Shown here piece by piece: positions 2,951 through 40,246 of a stretch of 41,853 bases of DNA. The notes beneath the pieces are model-generated. The model was not told where the DNA came from. It saw only the letters and a program-made list of their open reading frames with translations, and searched no databases. Numbering within the stretch: position 1 is the first letter of the stretch; every line of letters starts with the position of its first letter. The translations under genes and the position numbers were made by a program. The stretch is from a virus: IMG/VR virus record IMGVR_UViG_3300033143_006071, positions 1-41,853 of that record; one strand, given 5' to 3'.

Positions 2951-3083
2951 AGGTCATGTTAACTTATTATTAGGAACTGTTTGGATTTTCACTTTGATGT
3001 GATATTGATCATTTTGTGATACTCGCTTCTTCGAGAGGAGAGTCGTAATTAAGGCATCATCAAGATTTAAGTTAACATGACCT
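2951..3083. repeat. Perfect 16-bp inverted repeat in the resolvase 3' end
   Basis: AGGTCATGTTAACTTA at 2951-2966 recurs as its exact reverse complement at 3068-3083, enclosing 101 bases. One arm covers the convergent stop region of the PhaR-like and resolvase genes; the other lies inside the resolvase coding sequence. RNA from either strand could form a long hairpin. Confidence 0.8.
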
Positions 3084-3406
3084 CGGTCATTATACCTCTT
3101 ATCGAAGATTAAATCTAGGAAAAGTTTTTCGACGTTGCTGAGGTCCATTGAGTTACGAGATATTTTACCCGATTTAGTATAAAGCTTAGAATAAGGCATA
3201 TAAAAAGAAAGGTCAACAGTAAGGGAGTGAGTATTAAGATGATTAGAGACATACTTATGGAGCTTAGAGAACATCTTTTCATGTTTGATCAGCTGGTCCA
3301 GGATATTATCTCCCCAGGCTCTGCACTTTGTATTACGTTGCCTATTCTTATAGTACGCATTATTTACAGAAAAAGGAGGTGCACATATGGTGAACTCGAT
3401 GTCCAT
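2954..3406 (-). CDS. rusA: RusA-type Holliday junction resolvase
   Basis: 150 residues. It fits the RusA family: an N-terminal PPFSVNNAYYKN loop (residues 10-21), the acidic signature Asp88-Leu-Ser-Asn91 with Leu and Asp following (to about 98), and Asp116-Asp117 before a hydrophobic strand. The family are homodimeric, metal-dependent enzymes that cut four-way junctions in phage recombination or packaging. The start has AAGGAG upstream. It is the only minus-strand gene within the plus-strand early block, so it must have its own promoter or be read from elsewhere. Confidence 0.85.
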   Translation of the reverse strand: MDIEFTICAPPFSVNNAYYKNRQRNTKCRAWGDNILDQLIKHEKMFSKLHKYVSNHLNTHSLTVDLSFYMPYSKLYTKSGKISRNSMDLSNVEKLFLDLIFDKRYNDRGHVNLNLDDALITTLLSKKRVSQNDQYHIKVKIQTVPNNKLT

Positions 3407-3451
3407 AAAAAGAACTCCTTAGGTGAGGGCGAAATTAAATTCGCTATTAAG

Positions 3452-3553
3452 AGAACATGACCAGAGTATCTCTTTAGGATTAAAGTGCCTAAAGGCACAT
3501 AAGTTTGAAGAGGATTAATTAGTTGATTTGGAGTGACTTGAGGTCTTATTATA
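3452..3553 (+). promoter_or_regulatory. Duplicated ~100-bp control element, copy 1
   Basis: In order: AGAACATGACC (3452-3462), TTAGGATTA (3474-3482), hairpin GTGCC-TAAA-GGCAC (3485-3498) followed by ATAA, then an A/T-rich stretch and AGGTCTTATTATA (3541-3553). A second copy with the same blocks and spacings (within 1 base) lies on the minus strand at 37656-37756. Both precede operons. The hairpin lacks a U-run. It may combine a stop for upstream transcription with a start for the next operon. Confidence 0.7.
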
Positions 3554-3560
3554 CATAAGA
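3523..3560 (+). promoter_or_regulatory. Candidate promoter and operator for the primase operon
   Basis: TTGATT (3523-3528) and TATTAT (3547-3552) are 18 bases apart, a plausible sigma70 promoter. The -10 is inside a perfect dyad TCTTAT-TATAC-ATAAGA (3544-3560), a natural repressor site. About 80 AT-rich bases follow before the first small gene. Confidence 0.45.
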
Positions 3561-3638
3561 TTTAAAGGTTGTAAAGTAAATAATAAAAAAATATAATAAA
3601 ATTATAAAATATACTTTTATGGATAGGTGAGGTAAGTT

Positions 3639-3716
3639 ATGGGCAGATTATTTTTTAGGCAAGTTGCGATAATATTATTATTATTAGTATGGATAATAGG
3701 AGGGTTTAATGCATAA
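3639..3716 (+). CDS. 25-residue membrane peptide
   Basis: MGRLFFRQVAIIL... : ATG 3639 with GAGG upstream; the short basic head is followed by one hydrophobic segment of about 14 residues (IILLLLVWIIGG) and a stop at 3714-3716. The stop overlaps the primase ATG by 8 bases, the same arrangement used by real gene pairs here. It could be a coupled leader peptide for the primase or a small membrane effector. No homologue can be named. Confidence 0.5.
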   Translation: MGRLFFRQVAIILLLLVWIIGGFNA

Positions 3717-5832
3717 TTATAAGATTGAGTCAAGTAAGTATTTAGAGAATGGCTTATCAGTTATTCCAGATAAATATAAATCAAAACAACCTGCTATAAA
3801 GGCATGGTCAAAGTATAGCTATGAACACCCTTCAAAAGAAGAGGTAACCAGCTGGAATAATAGCTTTAATGAGTCTAACATAGCATTATGTTTAGGGGAA
3901 TCTAGTGGAGTTATTGCTTTAGATGTTGATACAATTGATCCTAAAGTAATGGCTATTATAGAACCTCTCCTACCTCCTAGTCCAGTTGAGAAGAAAGGTG
4001 CTAAAGGGTTTACTCGCTTTTATAAGTTTACAGGTGAAACTACTCAAATGCTGAAATATAACGGTGAAGTAGTATTGGAGATACTAAGCTCAAACAAGAA
4101 GACTACTCTTCCACCTAGTGTACACCCCAATGGTATGAAGTATGTGTGGACCTCAGAAAAGGTTCTAACAGATATAAACGCTTCAGAGCTGCCTATCCTA
4201 CCACCTATGCTAATTTCGCACTTAGAGAGCAAATTAAGGCTCCACATACCTGAATTAGTAGGAGTATCTAGAGGAAAGTTATTCTCTGGTAGGAATGACT
4301 CTCTTTCCTCGCTTTGTGGTAAGTTGATCCAGGAAGGTAAAAGTGTAGATGAGTGTACGAAAATCCTCGTACAAGAAGACATAAAGAATAATGATATACC
4401 TCTCTTTAGTGATCCTGAAGAAATGCAACATACTGAGCCCTTTACAAATGCTTTAATGTTTTATTCTAATCACTTAAGTAGTGTGAATAGTAAGAGATTT
4501 CGATCTAAAGAGGAGTATGAGACGCCTGTTACAGCGTCTGCTATTAACCATGAACATAAGGAGATAGTGGCTCAGGGAAAGTCACAAAAGGAGGTAAGCT
4601 CAAAAAAGTTAAAGAAGACAGAGTTGCCTTCTGCTCAAGGTGTAATGCAAACCGTTCAACAAAACATACTTGATAATAGTTTTATTAAACAGCCTGCTTT
4701 TGCTTTTAGTGCAAGTTTAATTTTAATGAGTACTTTAATTTCACGTAAGTTTACTTTTAAGGGAATGAGTTCCAACCTGTATGTTATCAATATAGCACCG
4801 TCAGGGTCGGGCAAGGATGCCCCTCAACAGAAACTTAAAGAGTACTTAATTGATATAAATGCAGATTCGTTATTAGGTGCAGGGGACTATGTGAGTGACG
4901 CCGCTCTTATGGACGGCTTAGAACAAAAGCCAGTGAGAATAGATATCATGGATGAAATCGGCGGCATTTTAAGGAGTATTACAAGTGGTAAAGCGGAATA
5001 TAACTCTAAAATGGCGGATGTGCTTGCGGAACTGTATACAAGCTCAAATACGATCTTCCTTGGAAGGGCAGTGGCAGATGGAGTCAAAGGAAGATGCTAT
5101 CGTCCTAACGTCAACATACTTGGATCCACAACACCAACCGGATTCATGGAAGGAATTTCTAGAAGAGCACTTGAAAAAGGACTTCTCGGAAGAATGTTGA
5201 TATTTGAAGGAGACTATGACCAGCCTGCTAAAAGAGTGCAGAAGTTTACTCACTTGGATAACAGAACTTTAAACAAATTGCGGTTTTTACATACATATCA
5301 GCCTGAAGAAAATAATGACATCATAGTTGCAGGGATACCCCAACTAGTGGAAGAGGTAAACGCGACCTCTAAAGCCGAGGAGAAATTAGATGAATACTTC
5401 ACTTTTTTTGACAGAATACGAACAACTAGTGATCACACTAATCCCCTTTTGCCTATTGTTGCTCGTTTATATCAACAAATGGTTAAAATAACCCTAATAC
5501 ATGCTGCATCCAGATGTGATATGTCAGCTCCTAGGGTCGATGTTATAGATGTTGAGTTTGGATATAAGACTATTCTTTATTATTATGAGAATATGAAGTC
5601 TATCCTAAAGAATTATATACATGATAGTCAAAATGGGCAGTTAAGAAGTAAGTTACTTAAGTTCATAAGAGAGAGGGAGGTCGCTACTAAAAGTAAGGTA
5701 ACACGCTTTCTTTCTGGCATGAATAAGAGACAGAGAGAGGATCTTATTACTGATTTAATTGATGGGGAATATATTGTGGTAGATGTACAGAACATTAATG
5801 GTAGAAACATGACTGTATACAGGTCTATCTAA
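3709..5832 (+). CDS. Primase-polymerase / helicase-like ATPase
   Basis: 707 residues. The N-terminal 230 residues resemble the bifunctional primase/polymerase (archaeo-eukaryotic Prim-Pol) domain: Gly15-Leu-Ser-Val-Ile-Pro start, Lys-x-Pro-x-x-x-x-Trp, and the metal-binding Asp72-Val-Asp74. From about 310 to 600 there is a DUF3987-like ATPase core with Walker A PSGSGKD (364-370) and Walker B Ile-Met-Asp-Glu near 415. The C-terminus (650-700) looks like a winged-helix. The probable role is priming and duplex opening at the phage origin, feeding the family A polymerase. It leads the replication operon. No separate helicase gene was seen, so this protein may supply that function. Confidence 0.8.
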   Translation: MHNYKIESSKYLENGLSVIPDKYKSKQPAIKAWSKYSYEHPSKEEVTSWNNSFNESNIALCLGESSGVIALDVDTIDPKVMAIIEPLLPPSPVEKKGAKGFTRFYKFTGETTQMLKYNGEVVLEILSSNKKTTLPPSVHPNGMKYVWTSEKVLTDINASELPILPPMLISHLESKLRLHIPELVGVSRGKLFSGRNDSLSSLCGKLIQEGKSVDECTKILVQEDIKNNDIPLFSDPEEMQHTEPFTNALMFYSNHLSSVNSKRFRSKEEYETPVTASAINHEHKEIVAQGKSQKEVSSKKLKKTELPSAQGVMQTVQQNILDNSFIKQPAFAFSASLILMSTLISRKFTFKGMSSNLYVINIAPSGSGKDAPQQKLKEYLIDINADSLLGAGDYVSDAALMDGLEQKPVRIDIMDEIGGILRSITSGKAEYNSKMADVLAELYTSSNTIFLGRAVADGVKGRCYRPNVNILGSTTPTGFMEGISRRALEKGLLGRMLIFEGDYDQPAKRVQKFTHLDNRTLNKLRFLHTYQPEENNDIIVAGIPQLVEEVNATSKAEEKLDEYFTFFDRIRTTSDHTNPLLPIVARLYQQMVKITLIHAASRCDMSAPRVDVIDVEFGYKTILYYYENMKSILKNYIHDSQNGQLRSKLLKFIREREVATKSKVTRFLSGMNKRQREDLITDLIDGEYIVVDVQNINGRNMTVYRSI

Positions 5833-8101: not shown

Positions 8102-8323
8102 ATGGGGAACATAAAAGATATGTTAATGACTGAAAAATATTCAATGGAACAAGAAAGTAAGGAAGTAGATGCTATGTATTCCTATTATACCAATGATGCT
8201 ATAGGAAAAGTTCGTGCACTAGAGGATAACCTGTCCGTCTTACATGCTTTTTTAGTAGACAAAGGATTACAGAAAGAGTTCGCAGATTTTGAAAATAAGA
8301 ATAATATAGAACAAGGGAGATAA
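8102..8323 (+). CDS. Hypothetical helical protein, 73 aa
   Basis: ATG 8102 with GGAG seven bases upstream; an in-frame TTG at 8096 is less likely. Acidic and helical throughout, without known motifs. It lies in the recombination segment of the operon. Confidence 0.65.
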   Translation: MGNIKDMLMTEKYSMEQESKEVDAMYSYYTNDAIGKVRALEDNLSVLHAFLVDKGLQKEFADFENKNNIEQGR

Positions 8324-11616: not shown

Positions 11617-12053
11617 GACTATGTAAAAAGTGTAATTTATATAGAAGTAAATCTCAGTACAGACATAATATGCAGCAATGTCATGAGTGTACTAAGTCTC
11701 AAAAAAGAGATCATTATGCTAAAAATAGTGAACGAATTAACGAAGATAGAAAAAGTCCTAATGGTTATTTTATACGTTATAAAACCCAAGCAAAGAAACG
11801 AGGGTTAAACTTTGAATTAACTAGAGAGCATTGCTACCTTTTGTTTTCAAAATCTTGCTTTTATTGTGGAGATACTAACCAAGTAGGTATTGATCGAATT
11901 GATAACTCAAAAGGATATACATTAAGTAATGTAAGATCATGCTGTGGGTGGTGTAATGTTATGAAATGGAAATTTAGTGAAGGTGACTTTTTTTCTAAAA
12001 TTAATAGTATTCAGGCACGAAGTGCAAAGCGAACGACCAAGGGGAGTAAGTAA
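11613..12053 (+). CDS. HNH homing-type endonuclease (1)
   Basis: 146 residues. An N-terminal zinc knuckle (Cys4-x-x-Cys7 ... Cys-x-x-Cys) precedes the HNH core: CFYCG, then Gly-Ile-Asp-Arg-Ile-Asp-Asn-Ser-Lys-Gly-Tyr, then CCGWCNVMK. This is the free-standing phage HNH type that nicks or cuts DNA and can spread into neighbouring loci. It sits immediately behind an intact polymerase gene, a common location for such elements. Confidence 0.85.
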   Translation: MRLCKKCNLYRSKSQYRHNMQQCHECTKSQKRDHYAKNSERINEDRKSPNGYFIRYKTQAKKRGLNFELTREHCYLLFSKSCFYCGDTNQVGIDRIDNSKGYTLSNVRSCCGWCNVMKWKFSEGDFFSKINSIQARSAKRTTKGSK

Positions 12054-37406: not shown

Positions 37407-37640
37407 GACATCTTCAAAATCATCATAATCTTCAAGAGTTATGTGCTCATGTTCTTTAGCAAGCTCTTCTAAAGTTTGTTGAGAAGTCATTAACCTTAAG
37501 TGATTCTCAAGTCGCGCCCAAACAGCTAATTGATAGTTATCAACCATAGTGAAAAATACATCATGTAAGTATAAGTATTTGTTCAGTAACCATAAATAAA
37601 TCGCAATTAGTTTATTTTTTATCCATATAAGTATTGACAT
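37401..37640 (-). CDS. Small protein with N-terminal hydrophobic helix, 79 aa
   Basis: 79 residues. N-terminal amphipathic/hydrophobic region (SILIWIKNKLIAIYLWLLNK) and an acidic C-terminus (DYDDFEDVL). GAGGAG upstream. It stands alone between the duplicated control element (37656-37756) and the portal-operon promoter. Confidence 0.6.
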   Translation of the reverse strand: MSILIWIKNKLIAIYLWLLNKYLYLHDVFFTMVDNYQLAVWARLENHLRLMTSQQTLEELAKEHEHITLEDYDDFEDVL

Positions 37641-37655
37641 ATAGCCATTCTCCTC

Positions 37656-37756
37656 TATAATAAGACCTAATTAGACCTCAATAAATTAATACACTCTTTT
37701 CAATTTTATGCGCCTATAAGGCGCGCTAATCCTAAGGGTCTCTTAGGTCATGTTCT
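37656..37756 (-). promoter_or_regulatory. Duplicated ~100-bp control element, copy 2
   Basis: Reading the minus strand: AGAACATGACC (37756-37746), TTAGGATTA (37735-37727), hairpin GCGCC-TTATA-GGCGC (37724-37710) followed by ATAA, an A/T-rich stretch, then AGGTCTTATTATA (37668-37656). A second AGGTCT lies 10 bases upstream (37678-37673). Block order and spacing match copy 1 at 3452-3553. An extra stem CCTAAG/CTTAGG (37731-37747) falls within the first gap. It follows the large terminase stop and precedes the next small gene. Confidence 0.7.
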
Positions 37757-37761
37757 AGGTC

Positions 37762-39255
37762 TTACTCCCAATAATCACTTTCAATATCATCTTCCCAATT
37801 AATACCTTCTTCTTGTCTATCGTGCATATGGCGAAATCTCCCGTCTACAATAGGATCTATATTCTTTACATACTGGACTGTAGTATGAGAGTCATAATTA
37901 CACGCTTGGTTCAAATACCTAAAACAATCTATTAAATGATCATTTTTCTTAGGTATGTTACCTTTCTGGTCCTTAGCATAGTGTTGCATCTCTTTGTATA
38001 GATGTTTACACTTATCTGATATTACAATAGTGTTATGTAGTAATTGATCTTTAATAACACCTAATCCCTCTTCTTTATCTCCATGTCTTTTATCTGTGGG
38101 ACTAAAATATATCTCATGCTCAGCCATTGCTTCTGTAATAAACCACGCAGCAGCTTCGTCAGCTACTTTAAACCAATCGTCCTTAACATTACCTTCAGGG
38201 TAAAGAAGTAAAGATTCCTTACATATTCTATTACATACGGACCTTGTGGTAGTTTTCATCTGATCTGTCACATACATCTCATTTAAGAGGTATAACTTCT
38301 TGGTCCAGGGATTGAGTGCTGCAAACAGTACTGCGAAACAAGTTGTATTCCCTGGGTCGGCTACTACGTACCACTCTAACTTCTTTAAATCACGTTTAAC
38401 CTCTTCATATACTTCATGGTGGGGCTTAACATGCTTTTCTGACAGCATCGGAAAGATGGCGGATTTGCCTCCTAATACGATTTTAGAGTAATACTCCCGT
38501 TGCACTATGTCTTCATCTCCACGAAGCCTTAGACGGGCTATTTCGGCTTCAATAAAGGACTTATTAGAAGGAAGGTGATTAATTGGGTTATCCCAAGTAG
38601 TTTTAAAGAAAACGCGAGATCGCGGATCCTTCTGAGCATATTCTAACAATGAGTTATATTGGTCCATATTCTTATCACCTACTTTAGGTAGGGTTCCAAT
38701 AACTATAAGAGGAGCCGCTTTTGCTGCCCTATTAGGTGAGAACTCGACATGCCACTGAGGGTGGAATACTTTCATCTCATCATAAACCACGATACTAGGA
38801 GTTAGTCCATTTCCGGCTGCCCAGTTATCTGATCCCATTATTTGGATAAAAGACCCATTAACAAGCCCAAGCTTCATTTCCTGGTTCTTAGTAGAAGATA
38901 TATACTTTCTGGTCTCAGGTCCCATAAACTTCTGAAAACGTTGAAGATCCCACATAATCTTCCTAGCATGCGCTGCTTCTGGTCCAATGTAATAACAAGC
39001 ACTTCCAGGGTTAAATAAGGCATGTCTCCATAGAACATAAGCAGCTAGCTCAGACTTTCCAAACTTCCTGGCACAGGGTAAGAACAGTGTATCTATGCTA
39101 CATTTCTTATCATATAGGGGTGCCAGTACCTCAATTTGACCATCATGGAGTCTTGTTTTTAGACCTACCTTAAGACCATCTCCACGGGCTTTGTTAAGAT
39201 CTTCTATAATTTGTAAATATTCTTGTTCCTGTACGGAAACTAGTACGTTAGACAT
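37762..39255 (-). CDS. terL: Terminase large subunit
   Basis: 497 residues. ATPase: Walker A-like CARKFGKSEL (61-70) and Walker B SIVVYDE with Asp159-Glu160; nuclease: WYVVADPGN with Asp300 and acidic residues later (ADEAAAW, LIDCFRY). It cuts concatemers and pumps DNA into the procapsid. Full length for the family. Shares a minus-strand operon with the small subunit. Confidence 0.95.
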   Translation of the reverse strand: MSNVLVSVQEQEYLQIIEDLNKARGDGLKVGLKTRLHDGQIEVLAPLYDKKCSIDTLFLPCARKFGKSELAAYVLWRHALFNPGSACYYIGPEAAHARKIMWDLQRFQKFMGPETRKYISSTKNQEMKLGLVNGSFIQIMGSDNWAAGNGLTPSIVVYDEMKVFHPQWHVEFSPNRAAKAAPLIVIGTLPKVGDKNMDQYNSLLEYAQKDPRSRVFFKTTWDNPINHLPSNKSFIEAEIARLRLRGDEDIVQREYYSKIVLGGKSAIFPMLSEKHVKPHHEVYEEVKRDLKKLEWYVVADPGNTTCFAVLFAALNPWTKKLYLLNEMYVTDQMKTTTRSVCNRICKESLLLYPEGNVKDDWFKVADEAAAWFITEAMAEHEIYFSPTDKRHGDKEEGLGVIKDQLLHNTIVISDKCKHLYKEMQHYAKDQKGNIPKKNDHLIDCFRYLNQACNYDSHTTVQYVKNIDPIVDGRFRHMHDRQEEGINWEDDIESDYWE

Positions 39256-39290: not shown

Positions 39291-39768
39291 TTACACATTT
39301 TCTACAACTATCTCATCTATAGCATTAAATTCTAACGCTTTATCGCTCATCCACCATATATTAGCTATAACCATCAAACGATATACTTCTGCAGACACTC
39401 CAAGACGCTTAGACTCTATCTTCTGGACGTGTCTTTCAAGTTCTTCTAATACGAAGTATAGCGAAACACATAGAGGCACATATTCCGGTTACTATACCAT
39501 CTATCTTTCTTCCACTTTTCTGTAAGGCTCTAATATAGTTCATTAGTTTGAATCCTGCAAATACTGATCCTCCAGGAGAATCTAATTCTATAGTTAAAAC
39601 CTCTTCTATAGGTTTACTTATATGAGCAGATCTAAGATCATCTATAACATTATCTATAGAATCATAATTAACTTCGTCTAATATAGAGGATGTAGTAGTT
39701 AAAGCTAAACAGTTTACTGAGGTTAGCAGTATCGTTAATAGGAGTAGTCCTCTAAATGTCTTTTTCAT
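39291..39768 (-). pseudogene. Frameshifted ClpP/SppA-like serine protease with signal peptide
   Basis: The first part (39768-39436, 110 residues) has a signal peptide or lipoprotein-like leader (KKTFRGLLLLTILLTSVNC), then LTIELDSPGGSVFAGFKLM and GICASMCFAI, with Ser99 in the place of the catalytic Ser. It then runs into an early stop. The second part continues in the next frame (to 39291) with LEELERHVQKIESKRLGVS, WWMSDKALEFNAIDEIV, the normal end of the family. The segment between them, which should hold the catalytic His, is missing. Either a deletion with frameshift made this a remnant, or two short proteins are made. Head maturation does not require it if capsid uses an unprocessed scaffold. 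Confidence 0.65.
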
Positions 39769-40246
39769 CTTCTTTTACCTCTTTAAATTCTATCTCTGGC
39801 ACGTCTGCAAAAGGATCTAATCTTATTTTCTCATGCAATACGTCTATAGCAAAAGGTTTTTCTTCAGTAATTTCAGTAGGTCTACCATCATCTAGCCGGG
39901 TAATCTTGTCTAAGGATTCTAATACTTGAGCGATCTTACCTAATTCAGCAGGTGTTGCCCCTTCTGCTTTAGACGCCATATTTGCCAGGGATTTATCTAT
40001 GATCTTCATAGCGTTCTCAGACATTCTGGTAAAGTGAGCTTTTTTTGTCGAGGTAAAGTGCTGAAATAACTCTGCTTTAGCAAGCTCTCTATCTACTTTC
40101 CAGTACTTATTGGCATGGTAACTTACAGAGGTACGGGCTAGGCTGTACTTAGAAGCAATCTCTGTTACAGAGTGATAGCTAAGATACATCTCTTTAGCAC
40201 CTTCTAATTGCTTAGGTGTAAGTTGTGTTACTTTCTTATTTTTCAT
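39752..40246 (-). CDS. terS: Terminase small subunit
   Basis: 164 residues. Residues 8-50 form a helix-turn-helix (LTPKQLEGAKEMYLSYHSVT, then SLARTSVSYHANKYW); a helical middle precedes an acidic, Pro-containing tail that would contact the large subunit. It overlaps the protease remnant gene by 17 bases. It recognises the packaging start site. Confidence 0.75.
   Translation of the reverse strand: MKNKKVTQLTPKQLEGAKEMYLSYHSVTEIASKYSLARTSVSYHANKYWKVDRELAKAELFQHFTSTKKAHFTRMSENAMKIIDKSLANMASKAEGATPAELGKIAQVLESLDKITRLDDGRPTEITEEKPFAIDVLHEKIRLDPFADVPEIEFKEVKEDEKDI

Follow-up and report, generated by a model that had tools for sequence, protein, structure and literature searches.

The genome of phage HK022 contains two related RNA elements of about 70-100 nt, putL and putR, which are transcribed from opposed strong host-type promoters and comprise internal hairpins, one of them starting with the first bases of its transcript (PMC9378689). 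In SPP1, the related sites oriL and oriR are located by the replication genes and in the late region, and the phage possesses the resolvase G44P (PMC3485210). Staphylococcal cabRNA is a structured RNA originating from within the terS/terL genes, and its sequence is not conserved between phages (PMC10686824). For Cluster A mycobacteriophages, dispersed operators or stoperators are reported that are phage-specific and occupy several noncoding places per genome. Here, we describe an element of about 100 bp that occurs twice, on opposite strands, in the window, i.e. the whole stretch of 41,853 nucleotides of a viral IMG/VR record.

The two copies and their promoter boxes

Copy 1 (102 bp) spans positions 3452-3553 and copy 2 (101 bp) positions 37656-37756. 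As first named, they lie on the plus and the minus strand, respectively, while the functional reading proposed here runs on the minus strand for copy 1 and on the plus strand for copy 2. Counted from AGAACATGACC, the shared motifs were found at offsets of 22 and 21 (TTAGGATTA), 33 and 32 (hairpin) and 89 and 88 (AGGTCTTATTATA) in copy 1 and copy 2. The alignment thus confirmed the original prediction of two copies with shared motifs in a common order and offsets one base apart. The end segments containing the copies aligned over 152 columns with 66% identity (BLAST E about 2e-11; about 2e-10 for the copy pair when searched against all fetched loci), and the local score between the copies was 61, compared to a mean of 27 and a maximum of 38 in the null. 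The similarity between the copies is far beyond chance. No third copy was found in the 41,853-base record, and a covariance model built from both copies yielded no further ones, as only the two copies were significant among 37 loci.

The homology extends past the first-named 3' end to 3599 and 37607, respectively, and this extension includes a -35 hexamer at fixed spacing past TATTATA. The conserved 3' end itself, AGGTCTTATTATA, corresponds to a -10 box in reverse complement, reading TATAATAAGACCT on the other strand. For copy 1, the promoter scan showed the -35 box TTTACA (3570-3575) and the -10 box TATAAT (3548-3553) on the minus strand, resulting in TTTACA-16-TATAAT (3575-3548) with an inferred start near 3541. 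On the plus strand of copy 2, TTGACA (37634-37639) and TATAAT (37656-37661) form TTGACA-16-TATAAT (37634-37661) with an inferred start near 37668. This corresponds to 11/12 matches to the sigma-70 consensus for copy 1 and 12/12 for copy 2, where recognition by a sigma-70 of the host is assumed. The 12/12 site is the only one in the window, compared to 0.07 expected from shuffles. Both copies are of the sigma-70 type, defined as TTGACA and TATAAT hexamers 16-18 nt apart. While the hexamers and their 16-nt spacing are kept, the 16 spacer bases have diverged, which is the pattern of a duplicated promoter. In the sense direction, no promoter is conserved between the copies; a candidate divergent promoter for the primase operon, TTGTAA-17-TATAAT (3569-3597, plus strand), is absent from copy 2 in conserved form. 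As a point against a promoter with leader, this genome is AT-rich and the -10 hexamer occurs frequently in it.

Judged from these sequence features, both copies probably comprise a strong bacterial-type promoter and a structured RNA start on the strand opposite to the first reading. A control element duplicated at operon boundaries, and a plausible target of a phage regulator, is thereby retained from the original prediction. A placement "ahead of" the operons for primase and portal is not supported, since the promoter boxes point to the other strand. The assignment of the element to the plus (copy 1) and minus (copy 2) strands is not supported either, because the conserved block ends in -10/-35 boxes of the opposite strand and copy 1 adjoins a minus-strand rusA-like gene with a Shine-Dalgarno sequence. 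The case is a caution that, where a palindromic element adjoins the stop of a gene, its strand can be mistaken.

A sense-strand reading would imply a processing or stop/start element, with RNA structure at the 3' end of terL or of the early genes on the left and cleavage or termination at TTATTATA. It would account for the element beginning with the terL stop; in addition, the structure can pair on both strands, and in the relative L003 three hairpins are each followed by ATTATA. However, TTGACA/TTTACA at fixed spacing past TATTATA is left unexplained, the ORF that would precede copy 1 on the plus strand overlaps with rusA on the minus strand, and a U-run is absent, so that we regard this reading as improbable. 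As had been stated for the element before, it is not a plain terminator: an intrinsic terminator was rejected at either copy, as a GC-rich hairpin followed by a U-run is absent. N4-type hairpin promoters, considered on account of a 5-bp stem with a 3-nt loop in L003, were also rejected, since no matching polymerase was seen.

Leaders, hairpins and neighbouring genes

The GC mini-hairpin reads GTGCC-TAAA-GGCAC (sense letters) in copy 1 at 3485-3498 and GCGCC-TTATA-GGCGC (minus-strand letters) in copy 2 at 37710-37724. The compensatory change that had been taken as an argument for selection on RNA structure is present. However, it is two-sided at one base pair only (T-A to C-G), fits an inverted repeat in DNA equally well and is too little to prove RNA structure. 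The outer helix of copy 2 (TAAGACCTA/TAGGTCTTA), which takes in the terL stop codon, is longer than that of copy 1 (GACC/GGTC). From the predicted starts, the mRNA of the rusA-like gene would begin with a structured leader of about 135 nt (3407-3541, minus strand), and the initially transcribed region of copy 2 (37668-37761, plus strand) would reach the terL stop, its transcript continuing antisense to terL. The leaders folded below shuffles, with z values of -3.1 for copy 1, -2.9 for copy 2, and -5.3 and -3.4 for the relative G001, while the comparison of sense and antisense fold energies favoured neither strand consistently. Folded as single-stranded DNA, z was about -4 for copy 2 and about -1 for copy 1. 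Both copies contain hairpins, but their predicted folds differ. No covariance-model match from Rfam 15 was obtained at the elements, even with E up to 10.

Copy 1 occupies the divergent gap between the rusA-like gene (2954-3406, minus strand, 150 aa) and the primase operon with its primase gene (3709-5832, plus strand; phrog_3022, 1.6e-54). To the left of copy 1, the Shine-Dalgarno sequence AAGGAG (3420-3415) follows after about 135 bases, and then an ATG at 3406. We use the label "RusA-like" because the score against PF05866 (E 4e-4, 21.4 bits) is below the Pfam cut-off of 22.8 bits. A protein of the IMG/VR relative L115 showed 43% identity to the gene product (E 1e-34). The residues D88, N91, K94, D98, D116 and D117 are invariant across six relatives and display the acidic/lysine active-site pattern. 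Furthermore, the AlphaFold2 model reached a pLDDT of 84, and its best seven Foldseek matches in the PDB were all E. coli RusA (E 4.5e-6 to 1e-4). By its model, the product has the RusA fold, seen mainly by structure, and is a predicted Holliday-junction resolvase. With the RusA family (PF05866; E. coli RusA 1q8r, 2h8c) it has in common the fold and the D..N..K...D.../DD motif; the difference lies in the sub-cut-off sequence score, the recognition being mainly by fold. A tblastn search of GenBank phages with this protein gave no match. The plus-strand ORF 3227-3460 overlaps the rusA-like gene and is probably no real gene. Beside rusA, the plus strand encodes a small protein (2717-2950) with a weak match to the DNA-binding domain of a PHB accumulation regulator (6.7e-5, below cut-off), which makes it a candidate regulator. 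Another small protein that may bind DNA is encoded at 39752-40246 on the minus strand.

Copy 2 begins at the stop codon of the gene for the large terminase (terL, 37762-39255, minus strand), and its promoter is aimed rightward, back over the 3' end of terL. No convincing gene was found downstream of this promoter on the plus strand; its product would therefore be a noncoding or antisense RNA. For terL and portal, only distant matches (<27%) were obtained. No match resulted from blastn of GenBank phages with the element or from a terL search of GTDB genomes, and a pattern scan of IMG/VR for the 5' half of the element gave two chance matches, in unrelated records only.

The two copies could also be read as a pair of replication sites, i.e. 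two related sites bound by an initiator like SPP1 oriL/oriR, where the nearby rusA would resolve stalled forks. One of the two similar sites lies beside replication genes and the other in the late region, a resolvase gene is adjacent, and SPP1 provides a precedent (PMC3485210). Since the window yielded neither an initiator gene nor an iteron array and the conservation is centred on the promoter boxes, this explanation appears very unlikely.

Further repeats were observed at the left end of the window. Two 144-nt arrays of GGTCAN-type hexamers (110-253 and 600-743) are 88% identical, are each preceded by a nearly identical TGATTAGAGGTAGGAAACAAAATTATTATAGGTCA leader and can be read as SRSGSRSWS repeats; L115 contains a similar SRSRSGSRSWS ORF (4119-4292, minus strand). 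The plus-strand ORF 1236-1925 encodes a C-terminal run of SAAYSADSA-type repeats and matches an Imm5-like domain (9e-10), and L102 also contains an Imm5-like protein (3158-3733, minus strand).

Paired modules in related phages

Related uncultured phages were gathered by terL searches. Many of the closer relatives comprise a spacer of about 100-300 bases after terL, which is missing (0-3 bases) in most of the relatives at 44-50%. Of the spacer-bearing subgroup, L003, L006, L018, L023 and L036 are covered by fragments. An exact antisense TTGACA after terL was detected in 8 of 12 relatives' spacers, which are partly related by descent and hence not 12 independent cases, while 0.43 were expected and at most 3 occurred in 300 shuffle sets.

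On the evidence of their sequences, G001, G016 and L018 each contain a pair of their own, opposed in the same way. In G001 (L009; terL 46%), the stretch following terL and the beginning of the other arm share a 68-base inverted pair. Its partner copy showed TTGACA-19-TATAAT, the only 12/12 site in L009, together with a leader upstream of a RusA-like gene, this leader being without a clear Shine-Dalgarno sequence. The terL-side copy showed TTTACA-19-TATAAT with an A-tract upstream. For G016, the opposite-strand pair reached a score of 56 compared to a null maximum of 32; judged by eye, its partner promoter reaches no more than about 9/12, and the gene that follows is not RusA. The opposite-strand pair of L018 (score 76, null maximum 63) was spotted by eye after this locus had appeared as the best other match of the covariance model (E 0.21, 37 loci). 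For G006 and G008, similarity within the genome did not exceed the null, with only short identical words (TTCAAAACTTGTTTA; TAAACATGTTTA) in common.

In G001, the rusA promoter lies at the head of a long row of genes that run in its direction through terL, which would suit a put-like antiterminator, where the RNA from each promoter binds host RNA polymerase and both long transcripts ignore terminators. The leader folding with z of about -3 points in the same direction, as does the pair of related RNA elements with which the transcripts of two opposed strong promoters would begin, comparable to HK022 putL/putR (PMC9378689). As a two-stem put architecture would have to be assumed, an Rfam match is missing and the promoters face each other instead of diverging, we consider this form of the leader unlikely.

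While the copies are similar inside one genome, the comparison between genomes is at noise level. Even for L003, whose terL is 77% identical in DNA, the spacer is unalignable with copy 2. Thus, conservation in related phages, on which the original prediction had been made to depend, does not apply to the sequence, whereas the arrangement recurs with different sequences. In G021, a module at rusA comprises TTGACA, inverted GACATGTC repeats and a CTCCC-GAA-GGGAG hairpin over the Shine-Dalgarno sequence, and the terL spacer is absent. Based on this one case of a module at rusA only, it is suggested that the rusA site is the older of the two.

The leader could also act mainly as DNA, with two or more regulator sites (the flanking inverted repeats) switching both promoters and the hairpin being incidental. 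Palindromic repeats are typical of operators, and in relatives the flanking repeats are palindromic (TAAACATGTTTA in L018 and G008, TAGACATGTCTA in G021, AGCATAAGCTAACTTATGCT in G016). In addition, ACTTATG is concentrated in the G016 elements (8/11), and likeness within and divergence between genomes would fit a change in repressor/operator specificity. On the other hand, the repeats in the window are not palindromes, no dispersed operator is enriched there (AGGTCT-type words were tried as such and rejected), and many relatives have the GC mini-hairpin at a comparable position. For such an operator pair, which is one possible mechanism of the promoter with leader, we see somewhat less than an even chance.

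Additional features were noticed in two of the relatives. In L009, about 250 nt without a good ORF separate the first gene of the left arm from the sense promoter (4740-4430, minus strand); this stem-rich stretch ends in a terminator-like hairpin (GGTCTCGCCTTCGGCGTTAGGAGATTTT) and may be an unrecognised small RNA. The same locus contains operator-like repeats of the type AAGTGTCTAAA...TTGACAC (4776-4815, 5682-5721, 8170-8195 and 11696-11726), two of the four being located at sense promoters beside paired elements. A 500-nt noncoding stretch in L100 (4200-4730) comprises repeated TAAACAWGTTTW words and several GC mini-hairpins. It lies upstream of an endonuclease VII-like gene (PF02945), and no RusA was found in the L100 genome, so that one of these resolvase types may have been replaced by the other.

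Proposed control and comparison with known systems

In the proposed mechanism, each copy would consist of a sigma-70-type promoter followed by about 90 nt of conserved, dyad-rich sequence that is transcribed first, and both promoters would be fired, probably early, by host RNA polymerase. Transcription from copy 1 would start near 3541 and proceed leftward via the structured leader into the rusA-like gene (3406-2954). The same promoter and leader after the terL stop would direct transcription rightward, leading to a non-coding or antisense RNA against terL. The shared leader may be the target of one common trans-acting factor, either as nascent RNA (put-like, or masking the Shine-Dalgarno sequence) or as a pair of operators in the DNA. 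Expression of the resolvase and the antisense transcript at the end of terL would then come under joint control. Taken alone, common control of both copies is about an even bet. Considerably more doubtful is the complete picture, in which a co-evolving convergent promoter-leader pair flanks the early region, the rusA-side leader and the antisense RNA share the same 5' sequence, and the noncoding twin, as a decoy or an antisense switch, couples the resolution of DNA branches to packaging. If the reading as promoter with leader is right, an uncultured phage family of about 42 kb possesses a duplicated promoter-leader whose copies co-evolve per genome and are wholly changed between close relatives, which would be the signature of a specificity-setting control circuit. 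Of note are mainly the co-evolution of the copies within each genome and the reverse-facing promoter behind terL.

Among the known systems, staphylococcal cabRNA is similar in being a structured RNA (here a predicted one) at the terminase genes that shows no sequence conservation between phages, while here a dedicated antisense promoter is predicted after terL instead. Compared to the stoperators of Cluster A mycobacteriophages, the window contains only two modules of about 90 bp, each tied to its own promoter, and no regulator was identified. SPP1 oriL/oriR share the paired sites and a Holliday-junction resolvase in the genome. They are a weaker parallel than HK022 put, as the conservation here comprises promoter boxes and leader and no G38P-like initiator was found in the window. 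The likeness to HK022 putL/putR is one of placement, with two copies just downstream of promoters, and the promoter boxes adjoin both copies here; as the put fold and antitermination would both have to be assumed, the element is not classed as put. In contrast to HK022, the promoters converge, one being predicted to drive rusA and the other to run antisense to terL. Altogether, by analogy, the element would work most like HK022 putL/putR or like two promoters whose operators are bound by a single phage regulator.
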